Under the pieces are notes generated by a model. The model searched no databases, had not been told where the DNA came from, and saw only the letters and a list, made by a program, of their open reading frames with translations. Shown in pieces: positions 46,913-55,054 of a DNA stretch of 64,000 nucleotides. Position 1 is the stretch's first letter. Each line of letters begins with the position of its first letter. The stretch covers positions 186,001-250,000 of the forward strand of contig NZ_JAMSLS010000002.1 of NCBI RefSeq assembly GCF_023806465.1, given 5' to 3'. A program made the position numbers and the translations under genes. This stretch comes from Thermomicrobium sp. CFH 73360 (GTDB taxonomy: Bacteria > Chloroflexota > Chloroflexia > Thermomicrobiales > Thermomicrobiaceae).

Positions 46913-47665
46913 ATGGCTCACCCCAGGAGATGGATCGTTATCCTCGCGGCGACTTCCGCCCTCATTCTGGTAGCCTGCAGCAGTCCGGCTGGAACTCCGT
47001 CACCAGCGCCCAGCGCACCGACCATCACCGCAGCTACCGCCGCAACGGCAGCGGCAGAAAGACCAACGCTGACCCTGTCACTCCCGACTCCCACTCGCGC
47101 CAGTGTGCCGCCCGCGCCCACTGTGGCTGTCCCCTCCCCAACCACTGCAAGCCAGCCGGAGACAGCACCCCGCGATCGCTGGGCCATGGCCTGACAAGGT
47201 ATTCAGAGTGTTGCCATTCACGGACAATCCTACGACTCGTCCGGTGCGTTGCTCTCGGACATGCACCTTCTCCTCGAGAAACCTGATCGACTTCGCGCAC
47301 GCATCTCCTTCCCTGACGGGACCGAAATGGAAATGATCCTTATCGGTGAGCGACTCTGGCTCCACTTCGGTGGCACTTGGGTGGAGGCACCAAGCGGCAC
47401 GATGAACGAATCTGTCGCGCAGGCGTTCGTCTTCGAGGACCGCATTCTCGACGACTCGGGCAGCACACCCACCTTCCAACTGGTTGGAGAGGAAACCTTG
47501 GACGGTGAGCAGACACAGGTGTGGCAGGCAGCGTTCACCCAAATGGGCGGTCGCTCAACTGTCTGGGTCGGCGCGGACGATCTCCCACGACGACTCGTCT
47601 GGGAAGATAACAATGGTCGCGTTGACGTGCGTTACTCCCGGTACAACGAGCCGTTTGGGATCTAA
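46913..47665 (+). pseudogene. lipoprotein gene interrupted by an in-frame TGA
   Basis: The first 93 codons, with GGGGAGG before the ATG, encode a lipoprotein signal with lipobox 'LVAC' and a Thr/Pro/Ala-rich spacer, then stop at TGA 47192-47194. The same frame continues for 156 codons without another start that has a ribosome-binding site. That part begins 'QGIQSVAIHGQSYDSSG' and contains 'LEKPDRLRARISFPDG' and 'LIGERLWLHFGGTW', like LppX/LolA-type secreted beta-sheet lipoproteins. The simplest reading is one lipoprotein broken by a nonsense mutation; a sequencing error or readthrough are alternatives. Confidence 0.6.
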
Positions 47666-48072
47666 CCGCCCACCTCGTGATTCGAGTGATACCGAACGAA
47701 CTCTGGGAGCCTAGCAGGACAGCGCCCAAACGGAAAACGCTCTGACTCGTCGATCGCAAGCGCTATCGGATGTCCGACCACAGTTGTGTCCCCTTCGTCT
47801 AGCGAGCCCGAGCTCCGACCAGCGTTGGAGCGCGTCCGCGACCAGGCTGGTAGAGACCCAGCGAGATCGAGTACGTCGACAGCGCGCCAGTACTCGTGCG
47901 TCGGCGACCAGGACGGTCCAGCTCCCTCGGGGTGTACTGCGAGGACAGGCACGGACGCAACCTTGACAAGGGTAGTCTGACGGTCAACAATGATGAAGAG
48001 GCCGATCGGTCGGTGTGTGCACCTTGACAGGACGTACGAGACGGCGGCGAGTGCGAGCGTCTGACTGGGCAT
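47662..48072 (-). CDS. doubtful hypothetical protein
   Basis: An open frame of 136 codons from an ATG at 48072. It ends 'FPFGRCPARLPEFVRYHSNHE' and has fairly GC-rich third positions, so it could be real. I recognise no family, there is no good ribosome-binding site, and it covers the candidate promoter (47963-47991) and just touches the 5' edge of the cobalamin riboswitch on the other strand. Probably either a small divergent gene or a chance frame. Confidence 0.25.
   Translation of the reverse strand: MPSQTLALAAVSYVLSRCTHRPIGLFIIVDRQTTLVKVASVPVLAVHPEGAGPSWSPTHEYWRAVDVLDLAGSLPAWSRTRSNAGRSSGSLDEGDTTVVGHPIALAIDESERFPFGRCPARLPEFVRYHSNHEVGG
47963..47991 (+). promoter_or_regulatory. candidate promoter of the cobalamin operon
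   Basis: TTGACA (47963-47968), 17 bases, AACAAT (47986-47991). Transcription would start near 47998, about 70 bases before the riboswitch. The -10 box matches only four of six consensus bases. Confidence 0.4.
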
Positions 48073-48180
48073 AGGTTCGGTCCGCTCGTCCACACGGGGG
48101 AACACCGGTGAAAGTCCGGGGCTGTGCCGCAACTGTGACGTCGCGCTAAGTAGCGTGGCGAAGCCAGGTCTACCGTCGCC
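48067..48180 (+). ncRNA. cobalamin (adenosylcobalamin) riboswitch
   Basis: The conserved core can be read directly: GGGGAACACCGGTGAAAGTC around 48096-48115, then CCGCAACTGTGACG (48127-48140), a variable hairpin (GCGCTAAGTAGCGT), and the B12 box AAGCCAGGTCTACC (48161-48174). The outer helix is formed by the AGGT near 48073 with ACC near 48172. A terminator follows at 48257. By established knowledge this class binds cobalamin and shuts off downstream expression, so the genes at 48348-53378 are predicted to be repressed by B12. Confidence 0.95.
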
Positions 48181-48256
48181 GCCGTGTCCGACCCGCCTCG
48201 AGCTAAGGGGGGAGGACGCCAGTGATCTGCTGTGCCTCAACGCAGTGAACCACCGG

Positions 48257-48288
48257 CAGCCCGCCCCGCGCGGGCTGTTTCCGTTTTT
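48257..48288 (+). terminator. riboswitch-controlled intrinsic terminator
   Basis: CAGCCCGC and GCGGGCTG pair perfectly around CCCGC, followed by TTTCCGTTTTT. A CCCGC at 48192-48196 could pair with the 3' arm as an antiterminator. This is the expected expression platform of the riboswitch upstream. Confidence 0.88.
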
Positions 48289-48347
48289 CCCGATAAGCCA
48301 AAGAGTGCGGTTCGGAGCCGACCTCAGCTTGAAGGGGGGTTGGAAAG

Positions 48348-49853
48348 ATGCGTCGTTTCGTCATGGTTCTCGTGCTGCTCATACTGGTACTAGCACCCAC
48401 GGCAGGTGTCTCAGCGCATCAACTTGATGCTGCACGAACTTTGGCTGGAGCCACCCAATGGCTGCTGAGTCAGCAACGGCCCGATGGTGGTTTCGCCGGT
48501 TTCAGTGGTGAGAGTGACCCAGGAATCACCGTCGATGCAGTCCTGGCTCTTGCAGCAGCGGGGATGAACCCCGCGCAGGTCCGACAAGAAGAGGGCAGAA
48601 GTAGCATCGAATACCTCCAATCAGTGGCAGCACAATATGCTGAGCACCCTGGTGGTGCAGCGAAACTCGTACTCGCTGCAAAAGCGTCAGGGCAGAATCC
48701 TCGCTCCTTCGGTGGAGTCGATCTGGTCAGACGACTCGAGCAAGCCTTCGATCCAACAACGGGGCTCTACGACCAGCAACTCTTCAGCAATGCGTATGTG
48801 CTCTTGGCACTTTCCGCTGCTGGTGTTCGCGTGCCAGACGCTGCGATCGGCGGAATCCTGGAGCGCCAAGCTGCTGACGGCAGCTGGGCTTGGAACGGCA
48901 GTACAGAACCAGGCACTGGAGACTCCAACACGACTGCTCTTGTTGTCCAGGCACTGGCAGCACTCGGCCATGCTGACCATCCAGCCGTGCAACGCGCTCT
49001 CCAGTACCTGCGCAGTGTGCAGGCATCCGATGGCTCCTTTGCCTATCAACCAGCTGATACCTTGGTTGGCGATGCGAACTCGACCGCGTTGGCCATCCAG
49101 GCGCTTCTTGCTGCTGGCGAGGAACCGCAGTCGCCGACATGGCGGTATGCGCTCGACGCATTAGCGCGTTTCGCTAATCCGAGCGGTGCGCTCCGCTGGC
49201 GCGACGATGCCGCTGACGACAATCTGTTCGCCACCGTCCAAGGGATCCCAGCACTCGCTCGGCAGCCCTTCCCGCTCCACGGAACGGTGCGGCCACCGCT
49301 TGTGGCACGAGCACCTCTGACGACCGAAGAGCCGGGTTGCCGCTTCTTCCCGGAGACGGATCAGAGTCTCTGCGGGCCATTTCTTGAGACGTGGGAGCAG
49401 CTCGGCGGACTACCGAACTTCGGATACCCGTTGACACGCGCCTATTATGATCCGGCACTCGGACTCGTCGTCCAGTACACCGAGCGGGCACGCTTTGAGC
49501 TCCACCGTCTTCCCGACGGGCGTGAACTCGTACTGCTCGGTCGGCTCGGTGCGGAATTGGCACCACCGCGACCGCGGGAAGCCTTCGCACCAGCCGAGCC
49601 GAAGGCATCAGCAGACTGCGTTTACTTCGCTGAGACACAGCACAACCTTTGCGCTGGCTTCCGTGCCTACTGGGAGCACTTCGGTGGGTTGAGTGCCTTC
49701 GGTTATCCGCTCAGTGAAGAGTTTGTCGAGAACGGCGTGGTCGTTCAGTACTTTGAGCGAGCCCGCTTTGAATGGCACCCAGGTGTCTGGCCAGAGCGGT
49801 TCGATGTGCTCCTCACCCGGCTCGGCGCTGAGATCGTCGAGGAAGGCTCGTGA
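48348..49853 (+). CDS. secreted transcobalamin-like alpha/alpha-barrel protein with Cys-rich C-terminal repeats
   Basis: 501 residues with a signal peptide (about 1-24). Residues 25-300 contain prenyltransferase/squalene-oxidase-type repeats: 'WLLSQQRPDGGFAGF', 'ILERQAADGSWAW', 'YLRSVQASDGSFAY', with 'DSNTTALVVQALAALG' and 'DANSTALAIQALLAAG' between. Transcobalamin and intrinsic factor have the same alpha6/alpha6 fold as their large domain. Residues 320-500 are two copies of a repeat common in secreted Chloroflexi proteins, each with two Cys, an 'FGYPL' and a 'VQYxERARFE' motif. It is the first gene after a cobalamin riboswitch and overlaps the DUF4430 gene by four bases. Cobalamin binding is inferred. 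Confidence 0.88.
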   Translation: MRRFVMVLVLLILVLAPTAGVSAHQLDAARTLAGATQWLLSQQRPDGGFAGFSGESDPGITVDAVLALAAAGMNPAQVRQEEGRSSIEYLQSVAAQYAEHPGGAAKLVLAAKASGQNPRSFGGVDLVRRLEQAFDPTTGLYDQQLFSNAYVLLALSAAGVRVPDAAIGGILERQAADGSWAWNGSTEPGTGDSNTTALVVQALAALGHADHPAVQRALQYLRSVQASDGSFAYQPADTLVGDANSTALAIQALLAAGEEPQSPTWRYALDALARFANPSGALRWRDDAADDNLFATVQGIPALARQPFPLHGTVRPPLVARAPLTTEEPGCRFFPETDQSLCGPFLETWEQLGGLPNFGYPLTRAYYDPALGLVVQYTERARFELHRLPDGRELVLLGRLGAELAPPRPREAFAPAEPKASADCVYFAETQHNLCAGFRAYWEHFGGLSAFGYPLSEEFVENGVVVQYFERARFEWHPGVWPERFDVLLTRLGAEIVEEGS

Positions 49854-50785
49854 GAAGAATGCGGCCCCTCTCCCACCTCTTCCTTGCGCTCCTGCTCGCC
49901 CTCGTACCATTGGCGGGGGCGAGCAGCCCACCTTCGCTCGCCGAGCGGCCAAACGGTGCTGGACTCGTCGTGCGCTTTGGCGACGGACGCGTCCTCACAG
50001 CCTATGTACAGTTTGACGAACCAGCAATCACGGGGATCGAGCTCCTCCAGCGCGCTGGCATTCCAATCACTGTCGCCCCGTTCGGGGGGCTAGGGCTGGC
50101 TGTCTGCGCAATTGATGGAGAAGGTTGCCCAGCAGAGGACTGCTTTTGTCAAGCCAAGCAGCAACCGGCATGGTTCTGGCATTACTATGGGTTAAACCCA
50201 GACGGTCGTTGGGCGCTCCATCCGGTCGGCGCGTCAAACCGTCTCTTGAGAGACGGCGATGTCGATGGCTGGTCGTGGACGAGCGGCGAGAGCGGACTCC
50301 CGGCGGTGACCATCGATGACATTGCGCGTGCGCACGGCCTCGAGCGGACAAGAGAGCCATCGCCAGTGCCGACACCAGAATCAGGGGTACATGCAACTCC
50401 AACACCGCTGCCACCACTGCCTGCTGGGTCACCCACCACGCCCGCGACGCTCATAACCCCGACGCCGTTTCAACCATCGACCCCGCAAGCGACTCCAACC
50501 GGGCCCCCACGCGTAGTACCGACGCCGATACTCCCATCTGCCACCGCTACCGTAGTCCCGAGTGTTCCGTCGCTGCCGACACCTGCACGTCCATCGGTAC
50601 CACCCTTGTCTCCGGTCGTCGAGGCGACGACTCCAAGCCAGCTCACCGTGCCCACGGTAACCCCACCAACGACACCGGAGAGCAATGCAAGCGGTCCACC
50701 CTGGATAGCCATTGCCTTCGTTGGTCTAGGTGCGTTGGGCCTCGCTGGGACCGCATTCCGTCTCCGCTGGAGGAAGAGGCGATGA
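49850..50785 (+). CDS. DUF4430 (transcobalamin C-terminal-like) protein, membrane-anchored
   Basis: 311 residues; GTG in a GTGA overlap with the previous gene (ATG 49859 also possible). A signal peptide (about 1-27) leads into a DUF4430-like domain (about 35-150), with 'TGIELLQRAGI', 'PAWFWHYYGLNPDGRWAL' and 'LRDGDVDGWSW'. The same domain forms the small C-terminal beta domain of transcobalamins. Then a Pro/Thr-rich stalk of over 100 residues, one membrane helix and a basic tail ('RLRWRKRR') anchor it outside the cell. There are four Cys in the domain ('CAIDGEGCPAEDCFC'). It probably completes a cobalamin-binding clamp with the preceding protein. Confidence 0.85.
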   Translation: MRRMRPLSHLFLALLLALVPLAGASSPPSLAERPNGAGLVVRFGDGRVLTAYVQFDEPAITGIELLQRAGIPITVAPFGGLGLAVCAIDGEGCPAEDCFCQAKQQPAWFWHYYGLNPDGRWALHPVGASNRLLRDGDVDGWSWTSGESGLPAVTIDDIARAHGLERTREPSPVPTPESGVHATPTPLPPLPAGSPTTPATLITPTPFQPSTPQATPTGPPRVVPTPILPSATATVVPSVPSLPTPARPSVPPLSPVVEATTPSQLTVPTVTPPTTPESNASGPPWIAIAFVGLGALGLAGTAFRLRWRKRR

Positions 50786-51777
50786 ACGGGGCACTCTGGC
50801 TGGCCTGGGCCACCCTCATGGCACTGGCGATCTCGGTGACGCGGAATCCCTTCTACCTGGCGCTTGCCCTGCTGGCAGTACTGACCGTCCGAACCGCCGT
50901 CGACACGACACGCCCGCTGGGCCGAGCCGCCCCACGGTTCGCAGTCTTGGCAGCACTTGTCCTGATCGGTTGGAGTACGGTTGTCAACGTACTTCTTGCG
51001 CACGTCGGGGATCGGGTCATCACACGGTTGCCGCCTTGGCCAGTCGTCGGCGGGCCACTGACGTTCAATGCCCTCTTGTATGGGGCACTCACAGGCATTG
51101 CGCTCGCCACCGTCCTCATCGGCATAAGCCTTCTTCATGCTGTCCTAGACCGTCATGAGGCGTTGCGGCTCGTTCCGAGGAGACAGCGCGTGCTCGCGAC
51201 GACGCTCGCGATTGCGCTCAACGCACTTCCGACGTTCGCTGCAGCCGCACGTGATGCCGAAGAGGCAATCCGGCTCCGTGGGCTCGCTCAGCAGCCGCTT
51301 GTGCATCTCCGCATGCTGATCAACGCTGTCCTGGTACGCGGTATGGACTACAGCGTAGCCGTAGCCGAGACGCTTGAGGTGCGTGGTTTTGCTGCTGCCA
51401 GCCGTCGCAGTCAGCGCACACGGCTCGGGTCGCTCGCATTCCTCGCCGGGGGGGTGATCGCCATTGGTGGGAGCATCGCCGGATCGGGGATCATCCTGGC
51501 ATTGGGTTTGAGCGGTCTTGCCGTAGGGCTGGCAGGTGCAGCATTTTCTGCTCTGCCGGGAGTGCGTGCGTTGCCGTGGCCCTGGTCAGCACGCGTGACG
51601 GCGCTCCTACTCGGACTCATCGCGGCAGGCTTCGTCTGGGCGTTACGCGATCCGGCCGCTGATCTCACCTACTCGCCCTATCCCACGCTGCACTGGCCCG
51701 GCTTCTCACTACTTGCCGGTGCCTCGTACCTCCTCCTGGCCGCTCCGGCATTCGCGTTACGCGGAGGACGATCGTGA
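50782..51777 (+). CDS. ECF transporter transmembrane (T) component, CbiQ/EcfT family
   Basis: 331 residues in an ATGA overlap with the DUF4430 gene. Hydrophobic, with about eight helices. The two coupling-helix signatures of EcfT are visible: 'DAEEAIRLRGLAQQ' and 'VAVAETLEVRGFAAAS' (x-R-G motifs), which contact the ATPases. It is longer than usual: three or four extra C-terminal helices follow the coupling region (about residues 215-328). These could stand in for part of a missing S component, but nothing in their sequence shows it. Confidence 0.88.
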   Translation: MNGALWLAWATLMALAISVTRNPFYLALALLAVLTVRTAVDTTRPLGRAAPRFAVLAALVLIGWSTVVNVLLAHVGDRVITRLPPWPVVGGPLTFNALLYGALTGIALATVLIGISLLHAVLDRHEALRLVPRRQRVLATTLAIALNALPTFAAAARDAEEAIRLRGLAQQPLVHLRMLINAVLVRGMDYSVAVAETLEVRGFAAASRRSQRTRLGSLAFLAGGVIAIGGSIAGSGIILALGLSGLAVGLAGAAFSALPGVRALPWPWSARVTALLLGLIAAGFVWALRDPAADLTYSPYPTLHWPGFSLLAGASYLLLAAPAFALRGGRS

Positions 51778-53378
51778 TCGAGGTGATCGAACTCCGCTAC
51801 CAGTATCCCGCCAGCCAGTCCCCCGCGCTGATCGCGCCGCACTGGTTCGTTGGAGAGGGCGAGTTTGTTCTCCTTGCGGGTACTACGGGATCCGGGAAGA
51901 CGACCCTGCTCCGCAGCTTGGTCAGTCTCGTACCGCACTTCTATGGTGGTTGGTTTGGGGGCCGCGTTGTCATTGGCGGTCGCGACACACGCTCCCACCG
52001 CCCAGCTGACCTCGCCGACCTGGTCGGTTACGTGAGTCAGGAACCGGAGGCGCAGACACTGCTTGACCGCGTCGCTGACGAGGTCGCCTTCGCGCTCGAG
52101 AATCTTGGCTATTCCGCCGGGGCTGTTGCCGCGCGGGTGGAAGAAGCCCTTGATCTGCTTGGGATTGCACATCTGCGCGAGCGGCCTATAGAGTCGCTTT
52201 CCGGCGGAGAGCGGCAACGCGTCACACTGGCTGCAGCACTCGCGCTCCGCCCACGCGTCTTGCTGCTCGATGAGCCGACCTCCCAACTCGATCCGTGGGC
52301 TGCCGAGTCGGTGCTCGAGGTCCTCCGCCGGCTTGTCGACGAACTCGGCGTAACGGTTATCCTGGCAGAGCACCGGCTCGATCGTCTGCTGGGCAGTGCG
52401 ACACGACTCACAGTTCTCGAGAAAGGGCAGCTGCTCGCCGATGGGCCGCCCGTTGAGACTGCCGCCCTTCTTCCCGATCCACCTGTACTCGTCCAGCTCA
52501 GTCAGGCACTCGGCTGGTCGCCACCAGCACTCACAGTCGCTGACGCCAAGAGACGCCTGGGACGCCACACGTTCCCGTCCCGGGCCAAAAGGTACGTCGC
52601 CGGCGGAGAAGTGGTCTTAACGCTTGAGGGTGTCACCTGTCAGCGTGGCGATCGCGTCGTGCTCCGCGACATCGACGTCGTGTTCAGACGCGGCAGCGTC
52701 ACTGTGATTGTGGGACGGAACGGGGCGGGAAAGACGACGCTGGTGCGAGCTGCACTCGGGCTTGAACCTGTCCAGCGCGGCCGAGTACGGTTGTTTGGCT
52801 ATAAGCCGGGAGAGCCGGCATTTCGCCAACAGCTGCGCAGGGTGGCCTACGTGCCGCAGTTCCCCGGGGCTCTCCTCCTTGCGACGCGACTCGCCGACGA
52901 CCTCGAGCTGGCACGTCGGAGTCGTGAGTGTGCTCACGATGCCGTCCAGGCTATGGTCGACATGTTCGAGCTTGCGCCACTCCTTTCTGCCCACCCGTTT
53001 GATCTGAGCAGCGGGGAACGCCAGCGTGCCGCGCTGGCAGTCGCACTCATCGGCACTCCAGACCTGATCGTCCTTGACGAGCCGACTCGGGGGCTTAACC
53101 TGGCTGTCAAGCGTCGGTTGGTGAAAGAGTTGCGTCAGCGCGCCGCTAGGGGGGCAACGGTCATCATAACCACACACGACGTCGACTTCGCAGCGGCAGT
53201 TGCCGATCGTATCTTGCTTCTCGGGAATAGCACCATCATCGCGGAAGGGGCACCAGAGCAGGTACTGGGGGAGAGTTTCGCCTATGCCCCGCTCATCAGT
53301 CGGATCTTCGGCCCCGCGTTCCTTGACCTGGAGGATGTACTCCACGTGCTTGCGGCGGTGTCTCCACCGCTCGATTGA
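51774..53378 (+). CDS. ECF transporter ATPase, fused EcfA-EcfA'
   Basis: 534 residues with two complete ABC domains in one chain. First: Walker A 'GTTGSGKTTL', signature 'LSGGERQRVTLAAAL', Walker B 'VLLLDEPTSQLD'. Second: 'GRNGAGKTTLV', 'LSSGERQRAALAVAL', 'LIVLDEPTRGL', with 'IITTHDVDFAA' as H-loop. It overlaps the T-component gene by four bases (GTGA). This is the energising unit of the putative B12 importer and the last gene of the riboswitch operon. Confidence 0.93.
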   Translation: MIEVIELRYQYPASQSPALIAPHWFVGEGEFVLLAGTTGSGKTTLLRSLVSLVPHFYGGWFGGRVVIGGRDTRSHRPADLADLVGYVSQEPEAQTLLDRVADEVAFALENLGYSAGAVAARVEEALDLLGIAHLRERPIESLSGGERQRVTLAAALALRPRVLLLDEPTSQLDPWAAESVLEVLRRLVDELGVTVILAEHRLDRLLGSATRLTVLEKGQLLADGPPVETAALLPDPPVLVQLSQALGWSPPALTVADAKRRLGRHTFPSRAKRYVAGGEVVLTLEGVTCQRGDRVVLRDIDVVFRRGSVTVIVGRNGAGKTTLVRAALGLEPVQRGRVRLFGYKPGEPAFRQQLRRVAYVPQFPGALLLATRLADDLELARRSRECAHDAVQAMVDMFELAPLLSAHPFDLSSGERQRAALAVALIGTPDLIVLDEPTRGLNLAVKRRLVKELRQRAARGATVIITTHDVDFAAAVADRILLLGNSTIIAEGAPEQVLGESFAYAPLISRIFGPAFLDLEDVLHVLAAVSPPLD

Positions 53379-53425: not shown

Positions 53426-53761
53426 GTGAAACTCGTCATTGCGATCGTGCAAGCAGAAGATGCAGATCGGCTCGTGAGCGAACTGGTCGACGAGGGGTTC
53501 CGGGTGACACGAATCGCAAGTAGCGGCGCGCTCCTGCGACGTGAGAATGCGAGCTTGCTCCTTGGCGTTGAGGAGCGGGATATCCCGAGGGTCCTGTCGA
53601 TTATCCGACGCACCTGTCGCCAGCGCAAGGAGATTGTGATCCCCTACGCCCCCGCAATGGAACCGGGGCTTCTCTGGCTCCCCGAGAACTTTGAAGTGGA
53701 AGTCGGCGGTGCGACAGTTTTCATCCTTCCCGTCGAGCGCATGGAACGGATCGATGGCTGA
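53426..53761 (+). CDS. second PII-like c-di-AMP receptor-family protein (DarA/PstA)
   Basis: 111 residues from a GTG. It aligns end to end with the protein at 30059-30400: 'MKLVIAIVQAEDADRLV', 'EGFRVTRIASSGALLRREN', 'LLLGVEERDIPRVLSII', and the end 'FEVEVGGATVFILPVERMERI'. It lies 47 bases after the ECF ATPase gene, behind a TATACT element (53388-53393), so it probably has its own promoter rather than belonging to the B12 operon. Confidence 0.9.
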   Translation: MKLVIAIVQAEDADRLVSELVDEGFRVTRIASSGALLRRENASLLLGVEERDIPRVLSIIRRTCRQRKEIVIPYAPAMEPGLLWLPENFEVEVGGATVFILPVERMERIDG

Positions 53762-53903
53762 GTAGCGCAGGGAAGCCTGGTCAACGGAATTGTCAACTCG
53801 TGACGCGTTCGGGACAAGAAAACATGACTGGTTCGTTGGGTGGTGACGGTTACCGGACAGCGATCAGGAGGGGAAGCGGCCAACTGCCGCGTGTGAGGAA
53901 CGA

Positions 53904-53932
53904 TTGACAGCCCCGATCTCACGCGGTAGGAT
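53904..53932 (+). promoter_or_regulatory. recA promoter
   Basis: TTGACA (53904-53909), 17 bases, TAGGAT (53927-53932). The start would be near 53939, just before the SOS-type palindrome at 53945-53956 and about 57 bases from the recA ATG. Confidence 0.65.
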
Positions 53933-53944
53933 TGACCAGGACTC

Positions 53945-53956
53945 GAACATGGGTTC
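53945..53956 (+). promoter_or_regulatory. SOS (LexA) box, Bacillus type
   Basis: GAACATGGGTTC is a perfect GAAC-N4-GTTC palindrome flanked by CG-like context (CGAAC). It lies about +7 to +18 from the predicted recA start, where a bound repressor would block transcription. It fits the LexA/DinR box of Firmicutes; no lexA gene is in the window. Confidence 0.7.
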
Positions 53957-53995
53957 TACCTCCAACTCGACGAGCTGAGGAAGGCGGCGACGCAG

Positions 53996-55054
53996 ATGGA
54001 TCGGCAGAAGGCACTCGAACTCGCGATCTCTCAGATTGAGCGGACCTTCGGCAAAGGTGCGATCATGCGCATGGGTGAGGATGCGTCCAAGCTCCAGGTG
54101 GATGTCATCCCGACCGGAGCGATCGCACTTGACCTGGCGTTGGGGGTTGGTGGGATCCCACGCGGGCGGATCACTGAGATCTTCGGACCAGAGTCAAGCG
54201 GGAAGACGACGCTGGCGCTGCACGTGATCGCGCAGGCCCAGCGAATGGGCGGCATCGCGGCGTACATTGACGCCGAGCACGCATTCGACCCGGTCTATGC
54301 CGAGCGACTCGGGGTCGACCTCGACAACCTCCTGATCTCACAGCCCGATACCGGGGAGCAGGCGCTAGAGATCACCGAAACGCTCGTTCGCTCTGGCGCA
54401 GTCGATGTGGTGGTGATCGATTCGGTTGCCGCGCTCGTTCCTCGCGCCGAGATCGAGGGGGAGATGGGTGATGCGCACGTTGGGCTGCAAGCACGCTTGA
54501 TGAGCCAAGCACTACGCAAGCTGACCGGTGCGATCAGTCGTTCCAAGACCGCGGTCATCTTCATCAACCAGCTTCGGATGAAGATCGGCGTCATGTACGG
54601 TAATCCTGAGACGACGACTGGCGGCAACGCGCTCAAGTTCTACGCCTCGGTGCGGCTCGACATCCGCAAGGTCGATGCGATCAAGGAGGGGAACGAGACG
54701 GTCGGCACGCGGGTGCGTGTCAAGGTCGTCAAAAACAAGGTTGCGCCACCCTTCCGCCAGGCTGAGTTCGACATCATGTACAACGAAGGCATTTCGGTTG
54801 CGGGGAACTTGCTCGACGTGGCGACCGATCTGGGAATCATCCGCAAGAGCGGTGCATGGTACTACCTCGGTGAGGAGCGACTGGGGCAAGGCCGGGAGAA
54901 TGCCAAGGCATTTCTGAAGGCAAATCCGGAACTGATGCGCGAGATTGAGCAGCGTATCCGGCAAGCTGCACCCGAACTCCGTGGACGCATGCACTACGAT
55001 GGAGGCGCAACGGAGGAGCCGGAACCAACGTTGACCTCGCTCTTCGACGAATGA
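53996..55054 (+). CDS. recA: recombinase RecA
   Basis: 352 residues. It forms filaments on ssDNA, exchanges strands and triggers LexA self-cleavage. Motifs: N-terminal '[20 protein letters not shown]', Walker A '[13 protein letters not shown]', catalytic Glu in '[10 protein letters not shown]', '[22 protein letters not shown]'-type region, and '[22 protein letters not shown]' with L2 elements (about 196-217). The C-terminus is acidic, as usual. A promoter and SOS box precede it. Confidence 0.98.

Follow-up and report, generated by a model that had tools for sequence, protein, structure and literature searches.

A riboswitch-controlled energy-coupling factor operon of Thermomicrobium with a predicted split, transcobalamin-like corrinoid receptor

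In a 64-kb stretch of DNA from the thermophilic Chloroflexota bacterium Thermomicrobium sp. CFH 73360 (contig NZ_JAMSLS010000002.1, positions 186,001 to 250,000 of the forward strand; hereafter the window), we analysed an operon of four plus-strand genes at 48348-53378 whose leader contains a cobalamin riboswitch followed by an intrinsic terminator. We propose that it encodes a riboswitch-repressed energy-coupling factor (ECF) importer for cobalamin, and probably for other corrinoids too, with a dedicated extracellular receptor consisting of two secreted chains that match the two domains of transcobalamin. According to this proposal, an alpha/alpha-toroid protein and a beta-domain protein would close on the corrinoid outside the membrane, and the beta protein, anchored through its stalk and membrane helix, would offer it to a CbrT-like S-component, whose gene lies elsewhere in this genome. 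The S-component would then topple within the membrane and be reset by EcfT and a double ATPase, whereas plentiful intracellular adenosylcobalamin (AdoCbl) would switch the operon off through the riboswitch and terminator. We put the probability of this mechanism as a whole at roughly 0.77. Corrinoid import by the operon appears very likely from the sequence evidence, joint binding of the corrinoid by the two secreted proteins is likely, and a direct hand-off from the receptor to the S-component, supported by fusions and gene order, is plausible.

An earlier sequence-only reading of this DNA had described a cobalamin riboswitch and a terminator ahead of four genes joined by four-base overlaps. 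This layout holds, including the overlap at each of the three junctions, though the riboswitch falls short of the standard thresholds. At the default Rfam gathering cut-offs, nothing was reported in the leader: the AdoCbl family RF01482 reached 47.3 bits at 48080-48221, where 50 are required (E 1.1e-7 in 501 nt), and RF00174 reached 24.7 bits against 31.5. Eight orthologous leaders score above the Rfam cut-offs, and a covariance model built from these eight, with the window leader excluded, had its sole match in the window at 48037-48194 (93.3 bits, E 1.1e-17). By this relatives-only model, the window leader is homologous to leaders that pass the cut-offs and occupies the same place upstream of the same gene; on these sequence grounds the element is a cobalamin riboswitch, which the gathering cut-off by itself would have wrongly dismissed. 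By the same model, the riboswitch is present in 68 of the 79 independent loci homologous to the operon, with the toroid gene as the first recognised downstream gene in 75 of 76 matches (duplicates counted) and a median distance of 246 nt from the riboswitch to the first aligned codon of that gene. The terminator consists of a hairpin with a 10-pair stem at 48255-48279 followed by a T tract; 0.3 such elements are expected in shuffles.

The product of the second gene has zero matches to Pfam or NCBIfam families, and its affinity to B12 carriers emerged from its fold. An AlphaFold model of the beta domain was computed from 61 homologues (predicted local distance difference test score, pLDDT, 89.6; predicted template modelling score, pTM, 0.82), and the 16 PDB chains closest to it all belong to transcobalamin, haptocorrin, intrinsic factor or the Ruminococcus protein 3u7z. 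Upon realignment, Z scores to these proteins were 10.9-12.3, with everything else at 5.3 or below. As modelled, the domain has the transcobalamin-type fold, a beta-grasp with a hairpin insert, in agreement with the structural likeness that had been anticipated. A profile of the domain gave chance matches only against PDB sequences; fold comparison alone was informative. The DUF4430 label previously given to this protein is correct solely as a fold, since neither the window protein nor a single one of the 61 homologues matched PF14478, and a profile-profile comparison between DUF4430 and the beta domain was weak (probability 22%, E 0.001). By sequence, DUF4430 appears to be rare in the phylum (PF14478 positive in 3 of 251 genomes, none in the Thermomicrobium genome itself). 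The stalk and membrane anchor ascribed to the protein are both present, as a Pro/Thr-rich segment and a C-terminal helix visible in the hydropathy profile. At another locus (L166:947-1878), the gene for a Pfam-recognised DUF4430 protein overlaps that of a DUF6580 membrane protein, which may be another S-component-like partner.

The first gene encodes the secreted alpha/alpha-barrel protein that had been predicted, with a single hydrophobic segment, at the N-terminus, and a toroid fold recognised through the Pfam family SQHop_cyclase_N (3.7e-11, over the cut-off). Like PF14478 for the beta domain, PF01122, the profile suggested for this protein, missed it: its matches remained below the cut-off (E 0.0047 and 0.0011, 16-18 bits against 25) and were outscored by toroid models of squalene-hopene cyclases, and at E <= 0.01 it was found in 3 of 55 toroid homologues. 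BLASTP aligned 289 columns of its toroid (E 5e-15) to the toroid of L168, a Chloroflexota protein in which toroid and DUF4430, the latter recognised by Pfam, form one chain. Downstream of the toroid, we noted by eye two LGFP-like repeats (49293-49850) that have no Pfam match; such repeats were detected in toroid proteins of Thermomicrobia and not in other Chloroflexota homologues.

The notion of a split receptor is backed by relatives in which the two halves are naturally joined. Beta-toroid single chains occur in ten loci (L069, L071, L110, L125, L127, L146, L147, L148, L151 and L164), and a toroid-toroid-beta chain occurs in L065. We modelled the natural fusion of L125, aligned with the separate window proteins, as a stand-in for the window pair; at pLDDT 95.2 and pTM 0.91, AlphaFold places the beta and toroid domains confidently. 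We infer that the two window proteins close around cobalamin and that cobalamin so bound is transferred to the S-component.

The third and fourth genes encode, as claimed previously, an EcfT permease and a fused double ECF ATPase. The presence of EcfT and two ECF ATPases in one operon fits group I of ECF transporters, those with a dedicated motor, although an S-component gene, likewise expected in a group I operon, is absent from it. Fusions extend to these components as well: EcfT is joined to the double ATPase in L080 and to the beta domain in two genomes (L067 and L068). A 1327-codon open frame at L146:8506-12489 contains S-component, EcfT and ATPase regions and is apparently a single-chain ECF transporter.

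ECF transporters require an S-component, which the sequence-only reading had overlooked and which is absent from the window, hence from the operon. The genome carries one in trans, at approximately C1:370371-371183 (PF12822, over the cut-off). The only significant PDB match of a profile of 45 homologues was 6fnp_A, the CbrT protein of ECF-CbrT (E 6.1e-7; next match, 0.37). Its connection to the receptor is apparent in relatives: the S gene is present in 37 of 80 named loci, the full order toroid-beta-S-T-AA in 30 of them, and beta-S-component fusions occur in two Caldilineales genomes (L125 and L164). Draft or metagenome assemblies supply most of the beta-S and beta-EcfT fusions, and faulty assembly could explain any one of them, but the cases are independent of one another and all in frame. 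Among 150 genomes of the class, 74 contain both beta and S genes, 16 beta only, 10 S only and 50 neither (Fisher p 6e-16, uncorrected for phylogeny), with the S gene adjoining the beta gene on the same contig in 12. In the Thermomicrobium genome, the S gene overlaps a BtuF-like gene by ATGA (C1, ~369-371 kb; L033:218-2085). The BtuF-like product (PF01497, 5.9e-16) has no obvious signal peptide, and the coupling of a binding protein to an ECF S-component is odd in a genome in which no BtuC was detected.

Table 1. Features of the operon and its leader (window coordinates), and a second riboswitch locus of the same genome.
Feature	Position	Strand	Basis and remarks
Promoter-like site, tentative	47963..47991	+	TTGACA-17-AACAAT; consensus scan, 10/12 matches; shuffles expect 0.0
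Cobalamin (AdoCbl-class) riboswitch aptamer	48037..48221	+	Rfam RF01482 and relatives-only covariance model
Intrinsic terminator, GC hairpin then T tract	48255..48289	+	Scan and sequence; likely expression platform
Secreted alpha/alpha-toroid protein, 501 aa	48348..49853	+	Pfam SQHop_cyclase_N, hydropathy, BLASTP
 signal peptide	~48348-48413	+	
 toroid	~48405-49262	+	
 two C-terminal LGFP-like repeats	~49293-49850	+	
Transcobalamin-type beta-domain protein, 311 aa	49850..50785	+	GTG start; AlphaFold2 model, PDB fold matches, hydropathy; signal peptide at N-terminal side of beta domain
 beta domain	~49946-50302	+	
 Pro/Thr-rich stalk		+	
 C-terminal membrane helix	~50702-50758	+	
EcfT permease, CbiQ family, 331 aa	50782..51777	+	PF02361 1.3e-6, over cut-off; operon member conserved in relatives
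Fused double ECF ATPase (EcfA-EcfA'), 534 aa	51774..53378	+	GTG start; two ABC_tran domains; ECF ATPase models best
Second cobalamin riboswitch and class I ribonucleotide reductase (L058, L171)	C1:422355-424838	-	Riboswitch, 88 bits

Upstream of the operon, the 46913-47665 region holds a 93-aa lipoprotein start and then a 138-aa open frame; the two resemble parts of one secreted protein, possibly split by a frameshift. On the 3' side, 53426-55054 contains a cyclic-di-AMP receptor gene (PF06153) and recA, neighbours that are conserved in several genomes of the same family.

The system is spread across Chloroflexota. In Chloroflexales, cobC and cobS lie inside the operon, a placement that, as far as gene content can tell, points to corrinoid salvage. 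The Thermomicrobium genome itself has two genes for class II, B12-dependent, ribonucleotide reductases over the cut-off, and its only other cobalamin riboswitch lies upstream of the large subunit of a class I enzyme, the usual logic of a switch between B12-free and B12-dependent enzymes. No FecCD/BtuC-family permease was found in this genome, which is 99.7% complete, with the control search positive in 13 of 14 reference genomes; the suggestion that an ECF engine takes the place of BtuCD fits this result. CbiC was likewise not detected in the genome, in a search whose controls worked. Given these two results, the window operon is the only recognised entry route for B12; with CbiC as the single marker, de novo synthesis seems to be lacking.

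Several observations weigh against the proposed importer. In structural models, the toroid fold by itself is not diagnostic of transcobalamin, a modelled toroid homologue having a Z score of 26 to squalene-hopene cyclase and 20.6 to intrinsic factor. The S gene lies in trans beside the BtuF-like gene and its presumed partnership with the window operon rests on relatives; no riboswitch is detectable at this gene, and 16 of the 90 beta-bearing genomes of the class lack a detected S gene. Finally, in G034, G050 and G058 the beta proteins adjoin BtuC and BtuD and no ECF module, which indicates that the receptor is not bound to one motor and can be combined with either. In L055, L072 and L073, two paralogous beta-domain proteins lie beside BtuC and BtuD, and L073 additionally has a BtuF-BtuC-BtuD set.

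The pairing with BtuCD and the unlinked S gene would both fit an alternative in which the toroid and beta proteins form a B12 receptor that feeds another permease, or just concentrates B12 at the surface, and the ECF module with its S-component works independently; in Lactobacillus, ECF-CbrT imports B12 without such proteins (PMC5997447). We nevertheless consider this unlikely, in view of the direct fusions of the beta domain to the S-component and to EcfT, the conserved toroid-beta-S-T-AA order and the lack of a BtuC-family permease in the genome that carries the window. Considerably less probable still is a CbiMNQO-type importer of cobalt (or nickel) under cobalamin control, with the secreted proteins as mere accessories. 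EcfT does belong to the CbiQ family, and cobalamin riboswitches are well known to govern cobalt transporters in many cases. However, the locus contains neither CbiM nor CbiN, and a CbiM-CbiQ pair is encoded separately in the genome (L035); the associated S-component matches CbrT, with CbiM matching just 1 of its 45 homologues; the lack of CbiC leaves no sign of a cobalt-requiring de novo corrin synthesis; and the beta domain has the fold of B12 carriers. That the toroid is an enzyme of the terpene cyclase or glycosidase kind, or a wall-binding protein, with no link to B12 is hardly credible: by fold and by profile alike it is closest to type II terpene cyclases, squalene-hopene cyclase among them, and the LGFP-like repeats suggest wall contact, but it is secreted, the acid motif DxDD of class II terpene cyclases is missing in all 55 homologues (0/55), which argues that it is not such a cyclase, its gene stands first behind a cobalamin riboswitch, and the toroid shares homology with that of the DUF4430 fusion protein L168 and is fused to a B12-carrier-type beta domain in many relatives.

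The proposed importer with its split receptor belongs to a known kind. A transcobalamin-like beta-grasp clade was defined in 2007, together with bacterial toroid fusions in either order and operons containing CbiO- and CbiQ-like genes, and B12 scavenging was proposed (PMC1796856). Like the soluble-ligand-binding beta-grasp (SLBB)/toroid proteins of that study, the window proteins combine a secreted toroid with a transcobalamin-like beta-grasp domain and CbiQ/CbiO-like operon genes. Unlike that set, described as a Gram-positive innovation, they come from Chloroflexota and divide the receptor over two genes; the riboswitch, the CbrT-like S-component and the fusions to S and T components go beyond it. 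The animal carriers transcobalamin, haptocorrin and intrinsic factor likewise consist of an alpha/alpha toroid and a beta domain, the latter being the best PDB match of the window-type domain. Here, by contrast, there are two chains, one of them membrane-tethered, the fusions of relatives mostly have the order beta-toroid, the identity between beta domains is just 9-14%, and the proteins are attached to an ABC-type importer instead of being endocytosed.

Among transporters, the closest parallel is ECF-CbrT of Lactobacillus delbrueckii, a B12 transporter in which CbrT is a proven B12 S-component (PMC5997447). Both systems have an ECF motor and a CbrT-family S-component, but ECF-CbrT belongs to group II, uses a shared general motor and has no reported extracellular receptor (PMC5997447), whereas the Chloroflexota system has a dedicated motor, a fused ATPase and a two-part extracellular receptor. 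With BtuFCD it shares B12 import with an extracytoplasmic capture step; the receptor and permease folds are unrelated, and the BtuC family, though not found in the Thermomicrobium genome, adjoins the same receptor in three relatives. The Bacteroides binders BtuG, BtuH and DUF4465, so far as the accessible portions of their descriptions go, also capture B12 at the surface beside a transporter, but are different proteins in outer-membrane, BtuB-based systems (PMC6143338, PMC8941943 and PMC13398666). The accessible text of an analysis of the cobalamin regulons of five Chloroflexi makes no mention of the proteins considered here (PMC3766115). In the open-access papers searched, we found no description of the split Chloroflexota receptor, its CbrT-like S partner, the beta-S and beta-T fusions or the pairing with BtuCD.

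Collectively, these results turn an in silico prediction of 2007 into a concrete, testable machine in which the receptor halves, the S-component, the motor and the switch are all named. They point to a means for much of the phylum to acquire B12, built on receptor proteins that match no named B12 family over the cut-off and that are also combined, as a module, with BtuCD-type motors. The finding bears on the origin of the animal B12 carriers, of whose architecture it offers a bacterial, split form. ECF transporters are usually considered to do without a soluble binding protein. We see an even chance that the two-part transcobalamin-type clamp passes corrinoids directly to the CbrT-like S-component, to which it is fused in some relatives. 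If an extracellular receptor does supply the ECF transporter in this way, the accepted mechanism would be extended.

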